This document shows, in pieces, positions 57,299-63,021 of a DNA stretch of 64,000 bases. How positions within the stretch are numbered: position 1 is the stretch's first letter; every line of letters starts with the position of its first letter. The position numbers were made by a program, and so were the translations under genes. A model generated the notes under the pieces. It was not told the DNA's origin. It did no database searches and was given only the letters and a program-made list of their open reading frames with translations. Source of the stretch: Rhodospirillales bacterium (GTDB lineage Bacteria; Pseudomonadota; Alphaproteobacteria; ATCC43930; CGMCC-115725); NCBI GenBank assembly GCA_027315365.1, contig DAHUYF010000193.1:1-64000 (forward strand), written 5' to 3'.

Positions 57299-58858
57299 AT
57301 GGCTGAACTCGACGTTGTCGAACTGTCCCGCCTGCAATTCGCGCTGACCGCGCTTTACCATTTTCTCTTCGTGCCGCTCACGCTCGGGCTTTCCGTGCTG
57401 CTGGCGGTCATGGAGAGCGTCTATGTCATGACCGGACGCGCCATCTGGCGCGAGATGACGAAGTTCTGGGGCACGCTTTTCGGCATCAACTTCGCCATGG
57501 GGGTCGCCACCGGCATCACCATGGAGTTCCAGTTCGGCACGAACTGGGCCTATTACTCGCATTACGTCGGCGATATCTTCGGCGCGCCGCTCGCCATCGA
57601 GGGCCTTATGGCCTTCTTCCTCGAGGCGACCTTCATCGGCCTGTTCTTCTTCGGCTGGAACCGTCTGAGCAGGCTCGGCCACCTCGTCGTGACCTGGCTG
57701 GTCGCGATCGGCAGCAATCTCTCCGCGCTCTGGATCCTGATCGCCAATGCCTGGATGCAGAACCCCGTCGGCGCGACCTTCAATCCGGCGACCATGCGGA
57801 TGGAAGTCTCTTCCTTCTTCGACGTGCTGTTCAATCCGGTCGCCCAGGCGAAGTTCGTCCACACGGTGAGCGCCGGCTATGTGACGGGCGCCGTCTTCGT
57901 GCTCTCGATCGGCGCCTTCTACCTGCTGCGCGGCCGGCACCGGGAGATCGCCCGGCGCTCGATCACCGTCGCCGCAAGCTTCGGCCTGGCCTCCGCCCTG
58001 TCCGTCGTCGTGCTCGGCGACGAGAGCGGCTACACTGCCGGCCTGAACCAGAAGATGAAGATCGCCGCGATCGAGGCGATGTGGGAAACCGAAACGCCGC
58101 CGGCGGGCTTCACCCTGTTCGGCTTTCCCGACCGCGCGACGGAAACCACGCGGTTCGAAATTCACGTGCCCTGGGTGCTCGGCCTGATCGCGACGCGCTC
58201 GATCGACGAGCCCGTCGAAGGCATCAAGGACCTGGTGGCCACGGCGGAACGACGCATCCGCAACGGCCTGACCGGGTACAAGGATCTCGAACGGCTGCGA
58301 GCCGAACGCGCCCAGGCGGTGCCGCCGGAAATGCAGGAACCGATCCACGACCTCGGCTATGCGCTGCTCTTGAAACGCTGGCGGCCGGATATCGGGAACG
58401 CGACCGACGAGCAGGTGCATCAGGCGGCGCTCAGCACGGTGCCGGATGTCTCGGTGCTGTTCTGGAGCTTCCGCTTCATGGTCGGCCTCGGCTTCTACTT
58501 CATCCTGCTCTTCGCTCTCGCCTTCTATCTGGCGAGCCGGCGCGAATTGGAGCGGCGCTGGTTCCTGCGGCTGGCGCTCTGCAGCCTGCCGCTGCCCTGG
58601 ATCGCCGCCGAACTCGGATGGATCGTCGCCGAATATGGCCGCCAGCCCTGGATCATCGACGGCGTCCTGCCGACTTTCCTCGGCGCGTCGAGTGAGCCCA
58701 TCGGCGACATCTGGTTCAGCCTGATCGGCTTCGTGCTGTTCTACAGCACGCTCGCCGTCATCGACGTCTACCTCTTGGTCAAATATATCGGCCTGGGACC
58801 GAAGCAGCCCGCCGCGCCTGCCAGCAACCGCCTCGCGCCCGCCACCGGCGACGATTGA
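57299..58858 (+). CDS. cydA: Cytochrome bd ubiquinol oxidase subunit I
   Basis: This is a 519-residue subunit of the high-affinity quinol oxidase. The haem ligands are visible as the N-terminal [15 protein letters not shown] His21, FVHTVSAGY and the Met in [10 protein letters not shown]. The quinol loop is of the long (E. coli-like) type, with [26 protein letters not shown] and a long insertion before GRQPWIIDG. It reduces oxygen to water at very low oxygen tension without pumping protons. cydB follows after 10 bp. Confidence 0.97.
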
Positions 58859-58868
58859 GGAGCGCGCC

Positions 58869-60014
58869 ATGCCACCGATCGACTATGCGAGTTTGCGTCT
58901 TCTCTGGTGGGCCTTTCTCGGCCTGCTGCTGATCGGCTTCGCGGTCACCGACGGCTTCGACCTGGGAGCGGCGCTGCTGCAGCCCTTCATCGCCCGCACG
59001 GATAGCGAAAAGCGCATGCTCCTCAACGCCATTGGCCCGGTTTGGGAGGGCAATCAGGTGTGGTTCATCCTGGGCGGCGGCGCGGCCTTTGCGGCCTGGC
59101 CGCCGCTCTACGCCGTCTCCTTCTCCGGCTTCTATCTCGCGATGTTCCTGGTGCTCGCCGCGCTCATTCTGCGTCCCGTCGCCATCACCTTCCGCAGCAA
59201 GCTCCAAGGCGCCGGCTGGCGACGCGGCTGGGACTGGGCGTTCTTCGTCTCGGGGCTGGTTCCGGCGCTGGTCTTCGGCATCGCCTTCGGCAACCTGTTC
59301 CTGGGGGTGCCGTTTCGCTTCGACGAGACGCTGCGCGTCGCCTATGAGGGCGGCCTCTTCGGCCTGCTCAATCCCTGGGCGCTGCTCTGCGGGCTCGTCA
59401 GCGTCGCGATGCTGGCGATGCATGGCGGCAACTGGGTCGCCCTGAAGACCGAGGGCGCCCTGGCGCGGCGGGCGGGCGCCGCCGCGTCATGGGCCGCGAT
59501 GGCGCTCGTCGCGCTGTTCTCGCTGGCGGGATTGTGGCTCGCCATCGGCATCGACGGCTATGTCATCCAGGGATCGATCGATCGGATGGGACCGTCATAT
59601 CCGCTGAACAAGAGCGTCCTTCGCGCCGCCGGCGCTTGGCTCGATACCTATGGCACGCATCCCTGGACGATGGCCGCGCCGGCAATCGCCTATCTCGGCG
59701 CCGGCGCGAGCCTGGCGCTGCACCGTGCCGTCCGATCCCTGCCCGCCTTCCTCGCCAGCGGCATCAGCGTCGCCGGAATCGTCGCGACCGCCGGCATCAG
59801 CCTGTTCCCTTTCCTCCTGCCATCCTCGATCGATCCGCGCAGCAGCCTCACCGTATGGGATGCCTCGAGCAGTCCGGCGACGCTGTTCATCATGCTGGTG
59901 GCGACGGTGATCTTCCTGCCGATCGTCATCCTCTATACTGGATGGGTCTTCCGGGTGATGCGCGGCCCGGTGACCGCCGAGGCGGTGGAGCGGGAGGAGG
60001 ACACTCTCTACTGA
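58869..60014 (+). CDS. cydB: Cytochrome bd ubiquinol oxidase subunit II
   Basis: This 381-residue polytopic subunit starts [33 protein letters not shown], with the conserved GFDLG. It continues with [24 protein letters not shown], both hallmarks of CydB. Eight or nine helices are predicted. The GAGGAGCGCGCC sequence before its ATG provides the ribosome site. It partners CydA encoded just upstream and precedes a small cydX gene. Confidence 0.96.
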
Positions 60015-61001: not shown

Positions 61002-61121
61002 GTTTTGGCCGCGCCGGTGCCGCCCCGTGACACCCGCCGAGCTTCGGCCGGCTTCTCCATGAACGGAGTCCCTCTTCCGCAACCACTTTCCGCCGCCGCG
61101 GAAGTCAGGAGACGAGCCCCT

Positions 61122-62122
61122 ATGCCTTGCGCGTGCAGAGGCTTTTTCTGTCCGCGGCAGCGCCCGCCGGCAGCCGGGCGCCTGGCGGCGGCCTGCATCG
61201 TCGCCCTTCTTGCCGCCGGCTCTCGACCGGCGCAAGCCGAGGGGGAGCTCGATCTGACACTGCCGTCGCCGAGCGCTGCCGTGCCATCGGCACCGTCCGC
61301 GACGGCGCCAGCCGAATCCGACGGCGTCGCCGCCGTTCTCTTGACCTGGCAGGCGCAGGCGGCCCGGGCGCGCGCGACGCAGCCGAGTTGGAGCAGTCCG
61401 CTGGTCACCACCACCGGCCTGCTCGAACAGCGGCTGCGCTTCGACCTCGACGAGCAGCATGCCGGCAATGGCAGCAGCACGACGGTGCTCGACGGCGGCA
61501 AGGGTGTGGACGTCATCGTCAGCGACACCGAGGAGGTCCAGCTTGCGGCGCCGGGCTACAACATCCGCACCACCCCCTCCGGCACAGGCGAGCTGAGCGG
61601 CGTCGGCGACTGGGCGTTCCTGCGCGTCGAACGGCGACTGGCAAGCAGCCCGGAAAGCGGCGGCAATTACGTGCTGACGGCCTGGCTGCAGCTCCAGGCG
61701 CCGACGGGGATCGAGGCACTGACCAGCCACGCCTGGACCTGCGTCCCCACGCTGGCGTTCGGCAAGGGATGGGGAGATGTCGACCTCCAGGGGACGATCG
61801 GCGGCGCGCTGCCGGCGTCACGTACCGCAACCCTCGGCGACCAACTCCAGACGAATATTGCGCTTCAATACGATGTGCTGGGTGTCTTCTGGCCGCAGAT
61901 CGAGGCGAATTGGACCTATTACGCCGGGGGGGGCAGCGCAGCGGGCTGAACCAGCTCTATCTCACGCCGGGATTGGTGGTCGGCCGCCTGACGATCTCCG
62001 ACGAATCGGCTTTCACCGTCGGAGCGGGCTACCAATTCGCGGTGTCGCCGAGCTATCGCGCCAACCCGTTGACGCCGGCTTACAACCACGCCTGGGTGCT
62101 GACCTCGCGGCTCAATTTCTGA
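61122..62122 (+). pseudogene. Outer-membrane MetA-like protein (PF13557 type) interrupted at a G8 tract
   Basis: The reading frame from the ATG at 61122 begins with a signal peptide (RLAAACIVALLAAGSRPAQA). It continues through beta-barrel strands such as DWAFLRVERRL, YVLTAWLQLQAPTG and NIALQYDVLGVFWPQIEANWTYY, then stops at 61947-61949. In another frame the barrel continues SGLNQLYLTPGLVVGRLTI and AFTVGAGYQFAVSP, ending SRLNF with the terminal Phe of outer-membrane proteins at 62120-62122. The switch lies at eight consecutive Gs (61926-61933); six or nine would restore the frame. It resembles the transporter-like family linked to phenol-degradation MetA proteins. It could be a phase-variable gene, a pseudogene or a sequencing error. 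Confidence 0.75.
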
Positions 62123-62178
62123 CCCGCAGTAGAGGCCGGATCTGATGCGCGAGCGCGGTGAGCGCGCTATCATCAAGC

Positions 62179-63021
62179 ATGGCTTCGCGGCTGCTTCGGC
62201 TTTATCCCGGCCCGCCGCAAGAGACGGCGTTGGCGGGCGCTTATCTCGCGCATGATCTCGCTTCGCTGGGAAGCGCCGCCGCGCCCTTCGTCTACGCCGA
62301 TTTCGTCGCCAGCCTGGATGGCCGGATCGCGCTCTGCGACCCCGACACCGGCGCGAGCCATGTGCCGCCGGTGCTGCGTAGCGCCGGCGATTTTCGCCTG
62401 CTGCTGGAATTGCAGGCGCAGGCCGACTGCGTCATCACCCATGGCGGCTATCTGCGCGCCGTCGCCGCGGGCGATCTCGATGACATCCTGCAGGTCGGCC
62501 TCGGCGAGGAAGCCGGCGATCTCGCGCGATGGCGCGAGCGGCGTGGCCTCGCGCCGCAGCCTGCCGTGGTGGTCGTCAGCGCCAGCCTCGACTTCGCCCT
62601 TCCGCCCTCGCTCGCGCGCCATCGGCAACGCGTGCTCGTCGCTACCCTCGCCTCGGCCCCGGCGGAAAAGCGCGACCGCCTGCGCGCGCAGGGCTGCGAG
62701 ATCATCACCGTCGGCGATGGCCGGTGGGTCGAGGCGGCGCCGCTGACGCGCGCGCTGGCGGGGTTGGGCTTCCGCAGCATCTTCCTGCTGGCGGGGCCAC
62801 GCCTGCTGGAGGCAATGCTGCGCGACGGCATGCTCGACCGGCTCTACCTCACCCTCGCCCACAGGCTGCTGGGCGGCGAGCGCTTCCATAGCCTGATCGG
62901 CGGCCCCGAACTGGGACCGGCCGGTCGGCTGCGCCTCGCCGCGCTTTACAGTGCCGCCGGGGCCAGCGACGGCGAATGGTTCGCCCAGTTCGATGTTCTT
63001 CGCCAGCGAGACGCCGGCTAA
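62179..63021 (+). CDS. RibD C-terminal/dihydrofolate-reductase-like protein
   Basis: This is a protein of about 280 residues with the RibD-C (DHFR-like) fold. It has the FVYADFVASLDGRIALCDPDTGASH substrate strand near residue 40 and DFRLLLELQAQADCVITHGGYLRA near residue 75. The C-terminal GFRSIFLLAGPRLLEAMLRDGMLDRLYLTLAHRLLGG segment is like pyrimidine reductases. It probably uses NADPH. No RibD deaminase domain and no rib genes are adjacent, so a role in riboflavin synthesis is unlikely. The start is ambiguous: GTG at 62158 or ATG at 62179, neither with a good ribosome site. Confidence 0.8.
   Translation: MASRLLRLYPGPPQETALAGAYLAHDLASLGSAAAPFVYADFVASLDGRIALCDPDTGASHVPPVLRSAGDFRLLLELQAQADCVITHGGYLRAVAAGDLDDILQVGLGEEAGDLARWRERRGLAPQPAVVVVSASLDFALPPSLARHRQRVLVATLASAPAEKRDRLRAQGCEIITVGDGRWVEAAPLTRALAGLGFRSIFLLAGPRLLEAMLRDGMLDRLYLTLAHRLLGGERFHSLIGGPELGPAGRLRLAALYSAAGASDGEWFAQFDVLRQRDAG

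Follow-up and report, generated by a model that had tools for sequence, protein, structure and literature searches.

The 64,000-nucleotide stretch of Rhodospirillales DNA analyzed here (hereafter, the window) carries a gene for a putative porin-like outer-membrane beta-barrel of about 12 strands, whose reading frame changes at a run of eight Gs. On balance, the frameshift probably arose by slippage in this run, depriving the product of its last three strands and probably leaving the gene off. The features of the locus are listed in Table 1.

Table 1. Features of the frameshifted barrel gene and its surroundings in the window.
Feature	Coordinates	Strand	Basis
Shine-Dalgarno-like AGGAG	61107..61111	+	by eye; precedes the start codon
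Barrel gene, N-terminal part (start, leader, barrel part, out-of-frame tail and stop past the tract)	61122..61949	+	ORF; tblastn relatives; profile positions 6-257 of 311
G8 homopolymer, site of the frame change	61926..61933	+	sequence; profile; relatives without it
Barrel gene, C-terminal part, -1 frame, Phe followed by stop	61934..62122	+	ORF; profile positions 253-311 of 311; ends of relatives

The original prediction placed a G8 homopolymer and a switch of frame at this site, and both are borne out by the sequence itself, by the ORFs and by two adjoining matches to a family profile. This profile, of length 311, was built from nine intact relatives and matches the window gene in two frames, at positions 6-257 (266 bits) and 253-311 (71 bits), which places the shift at the tract. 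The first-frame ORF opens with the ATG at 61122, passes through the tract and ends at the stop codon at 61947-61949 (275 codons). The remainder of the barrel is encoded in the second (-1) frame, ending in ...VLTSRLNF before the stop codon at 62120-62122. Codon-position GC shows a coding-like pattern in the first frame ahead of the tract and in the second beyond it. With one family matched in both frames and codon-position GC in agreement, the description of two well-preserved barrel halves lying in different frames also holds. The tract is located about 81% of the way into the gene. The rest of the gene was said to be intact, including signal peptide and terminal Phe, and the sequence agrees: the AGGAG motif, a leader at approximately 61122-61238, recognized by eye and ending in ...RPAQA, and the terminal ...VLTSRLNF are all present. 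Thus, the leader and the terminal aromatic residue (...RLNF, in the second frame), both hallmarks of outer-membrane barrels, are there. As sequence, the G8-linked frameshift in a porin-like gene is real, and, as in contingency loci, it is the length of the tract that determines in which frame an otherwise intact gene is read.

The gene belongs to a family of patchy distribution. With tblastn, the N half found eight relatives in named GTDB genomes, the best two being 58 and 53% identical and coming from metagenome-assembled genomes labeled Proteobacteria, and the six others being labeled Alphaproteobacteria, Deltaproteobacteria, Acidobacteriota, Acidobacteria and Xanthobacteraceae (two). Among 61 related genomes, N-half matches were present in three (G023, G043 and the window's own genome). 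The profile matched five of the 39 genomes of the same taxonomic family at E <= 0.001, including the window's own genome and two marginal cases (6e-4 and 7e-4). In the class as a whole, where the five best candidates per genome were scored, it matched five of 385 drawn genomes, again including the window's own and one marginal case. No profile match to the barrel gene was obtained in the other three genomes of the genus, which are 78-82% complete. The genome of the window also encodes an intact, diverged paralogue (L022, G000:C200:3061-3921), which is 36-37% identical over the matched N part and has no G tract at the junction. Neither half matched Pfam or NCBIfam at E <= 1, and no Pfam family was found for the nine relatives; these same searches gave no sequence-family match to the NanC/KdgM-type 12-stranded porins. 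The N half had no relative in the plasmid collection, and a search for relatives at the DNA level returned mostly weak, short matches. The single match in a sequence search against solved structures (E 0.69) was taken as due to chance. None of the titles or abstract openings of the papers listed in the literature search concerned the barrel gene.

Further indications come from a structural model of a relative's protein, L024. This is a weak model (mean pLDDT 57.9, with higher values in the C-terminal part), in which the N-terminal third is poorly predicted and about 12 strands follow it. In the Foldseek comparison of this model with the PDB, the best matches among the top 50 were FapF, NanC, VhGalP and general porins. 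The model lies near NanC (2wjr, TM-score 0.64 by target length), VhGalP (8xua, 0.61) and FapF (5o68, 0.48-0.56 among the listed chains), all 12-stranded barrels. The sequence identity to these three proteins is, however, 8-14%, and no Pfam family was matched by the window halves or the nine relatives. Judging from this model, the gene product is best read as a porin-like barrel of the outer membrane with about 12 strands. The junction residue corresponds to Gly318 in L024, between the strands 304-315 and 324-339, and three strands (324-339, 343-357 and 366-378) follow it. On this mapping, the final three strands and the terminal Phe would be absent from the G8 product.

Comparison of the relatives at the junction bears on the origin of the tract. 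In all 13 relatives compared (L020-L030, L135 and L136, the paralogue included), the N and C parts are in one frame at the junction, although a contig end cuts L023 soon after it and L026 diverges after 38 C-part residues. Beyond these 13, there is a weak match in G365, where the copy is broken and contains an internal TAG, and marginal matches in G004 and G007. The terminal Phe is present in all nine relatives that can be read to the usual end of the family. No homopolymer longer than 5 occurs within 40 bases of the junction in any of the 13. Since the parts share a frame and the run is missing, the tract is not a conserved switch. This comparison of tract length with relatives, proposed along with the original prediction, speaks against on/off switching, but it is a weak comparison, as the nearest relatives are 53-58% identical and their stretches do not keep the gene order of the window. 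The ratio of C-half to N-half identity is 1.08-1.34 between the window gene and the nine relatives and 0.77-1.37 among the relatives themselves, so that the C half is without measurable decay. Accordingly, the frameshift either arose recently or is reversible, bypassed by recoding or artifactual.

A recent frameshift produced by slippage would account for these features. During replication, slipped-strand mispairing at the run of Gs probably changed the length of the tract, and ribosomes leaving it in the wrong frame would reach a stop within five codons. The product, having lost three strands and the terminal Phe, would probably be degraded, leaving the gene off. The terminal Phe is known to be recognized by the barrel-assembly (Bam) machinery, through which the G8 product would presumably not be assembled. 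Further slippage could in principle restore the frame. Parallels are found in other bacteria, Mycobacterium tuberculosis, with its GC-rich genome, among them. Slippage is documented for runs of G as long as this one (PMC11898584, PMC5854121). Rates of single-base indels in mutS-deficient Vibrio lines climb with homopolymer length (PMC5854121). In M. tuberculosis, a G7 tract in glpK is described, in which frameshifting indels inactivate the gene in many isolates (PMC11898584). The glpK case resembles the present one in having a poly-G tract within the coding region of a GC-rich genome and inactivating frameshift indels, but there the indels occur in many isolates, whereas here a single genome and an outer-membrane barrel gene are concerned. 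If the length of the tract is fixed, this is an ordinary frameshift, which gene callers would enter as a truncated protein.

A chance association of the tract and the frameshift is improbable. The whole genome (4,966,495 bases) contains 13 distinct tracts of G8 or longer (17 overlapping matches), and the probability that a shift at a random position lands no more than 10 bases from any of these is about 7e-5; hence, tract and frameshift are linked, be it through an event in the cell or through the sequencing. Under a second-order Markov model, 3.3 runs of at least 8 are expected in 866 kb, against none observed; scaled by hand to the genome, the expectation is about 19, against 13 found. The G8 tract is accordingly rare, yet not far from the Markov expectation, with little shortage. 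Long runs are strongly under-represented within genes. In a sample of 477 ORFs (569 kb, drawn from contig starts and the window, with the stretches chosen for their G8 tracts omitted and the barrel gene itself failing the ORF filter), there are no G/C runs of at least 8, compared to 23.7 +/- 4.6 after synonymous shuffling, and 46 runs of at least 6, compared to 306.

If the shift was made by sequencing or assembly, the true tract differs in length and the gene is intact in the cell. The draft state of the genome (215 contigs), the undecayed halves and the intact relatives fit such an error. Its general frequency was assessed with a six-frame coding model run on 1,135,865 bases, comprising the window and 80 stretches of the genome (8,803 bases, in four all-N contigs, are N), those around the 12 other G8 or longer tracts having been included on purpose. 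The model serves as a screen rather than a gene finder and would overlook switches lying over 25 bases away from a tract. In all, 318 same-strand frame switches were called; a simple stop/start overlap motif is close to 222 of them, and the other 96 are unclassified. Of 111 6-base G/C tracts, 72 are coding and three have a switch nearby, all of them ordinary stop/start overlaps. The 7-base tracts number 20, with 14 coding on both sides and no frame switch within 25 bases; among ten 8-base tracts, seven are coding and one, that of the barrel gene, has a switch. In two of the six other coding 8-base tracts the coding call ends less than 60 bases downstream. The three longest G tracts, L107:9508 (G10), L110:9507 (G9) and L113:9449 (G9), are not coding on both sides. 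As none of the 20 other coding 7-8 base tracts has a switch within 25 bases in this 1.136 Mb, length errors are not general, and widespread homopolymer error in the assembly was rejected for tracts of this size; the count nevertheless permits an error rate of about 14% per tract (95% limit), and one wrong tract among seven coding 8-base tracts is compatible with the screen. A check for the short-read signature of contig-end overlaps found one, of 141 bases, among 118 ends. Loss of mismatch repair was also rejected: mutS and mutL exceed the curated cut-offs and contain no internal stops, so slippage would not be raised through their loss. Taken together, an error confined to this tract is a real possibility but a rather unlikely one.

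If instead the slippage is frequent and reversible, the gene would be a phase-variable contingency locus, a class defined by variation in tract length, and such changes would turn the surface protein on and off, as had been suggested. Of that suggestion, the slippage-prone G tract stands, while the switching does not find support in the relatives, all 13 of which, the paralogue included, lack the tract. A surface protein with a G8 tract in its coding region, an otherwise intact gene and no decay would suit a switch, and since long G/C runs are scarce in the genes of this genome (none of at least 8 in the 477 sampled ORFs, against 23.7 shuffled), the tract of the barrel gene stands out. On the other hand, no set of switch loci accompanies it: the other coding G8 tracts are not associated with frame switches, and the three longer ones are not coding on both sides. 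A survey of tracts of G7 or longer in Helicobacter canadensis reports that all 29 coding-associated tracts vary in the reads (PMC2823697). The two cases are alike in that G tracts lie in coding regions, some with frameshifts in the assembled sequence and some late in the gene, and differ in that a set of read-variable tracts is described there and one gene in one genome here. The G8 tract is also short beside the G10-G17 tracts of H. canadensis, and its late position (about 81%) recalls tracts which are treated there as altering the C terminus and not as switching the gene on and off (PMC2823697); the loss of a barrel end should matter more than the usual C-terminal change of late tracts. Reversible phase variation of the barrel gene is a fair but unproven hypothesis, and we regard it as doubtful that a lone G8 switch has newly arisen in the gene of a porin-like surface protein, in a GC-rich, probably alphaproteobacterial lineage that carries an intact, diverged paralogue at another site in its genome; the standing of the locus as a phase-variable one in general is equally tentative. 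If the tract length does vary, the locus would be a poly-G switch in a GC-rich lineage, outside the pathogens in which such loci have mostly been studied, and would show how a contingency locus can originate in a genome with few long G runs in its genes. The undecayed C half would also be explained if slippage of the ribosome or RNA polymerase at the G run yielded some full-length protein from the G8 allele. Slippery heptamers for -1 frameshifting have the form X_XXY_YYZ, which G_GGG_GGC at 61928-61934 fits in the first frame, and the second frame is indeed -1. However, the slippery site occurs in none of the 13 relatives, and a stimulatory RNA structure downstream of the tract was not found in the one 95-base stretch folded into pseudoknot-free structures: its RNA is not unusually structured (z -0.74), and 48 of 200 shuffled sequences fold equally well or better. 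Recoding is accordingly highly improbable, and a slippage mutation in the gene itself is the preferred reading.

The barrel gene is preceded, at 57299-60014, by a CydA-like gene, an adjoining CydB-like gene (assigned by eye and position) and a PEBP/YbhB-like gene (PF01161), and is followed, at 62158-63021, by a gene for a stand-alone reductase-like RibD C-terminal domain (PF01872). None of these CydA, CydB, PEBP and RibD-like neighbors had a match in the 15 stretches carrying relatives of the barrel gene. The RibD-like neighbor has one strong relative in the taxonomic family, in G005 (63% identity), a genome in which the barrel family is unmatched. The host is probably an alphaproteobacterium: for the CydA-like gene, the 12 best plasmid matches listed come from Aureimonas, Pseudoroseomonas, Rhizobium and Chelatococcus, all alphaproteobacterial genera.
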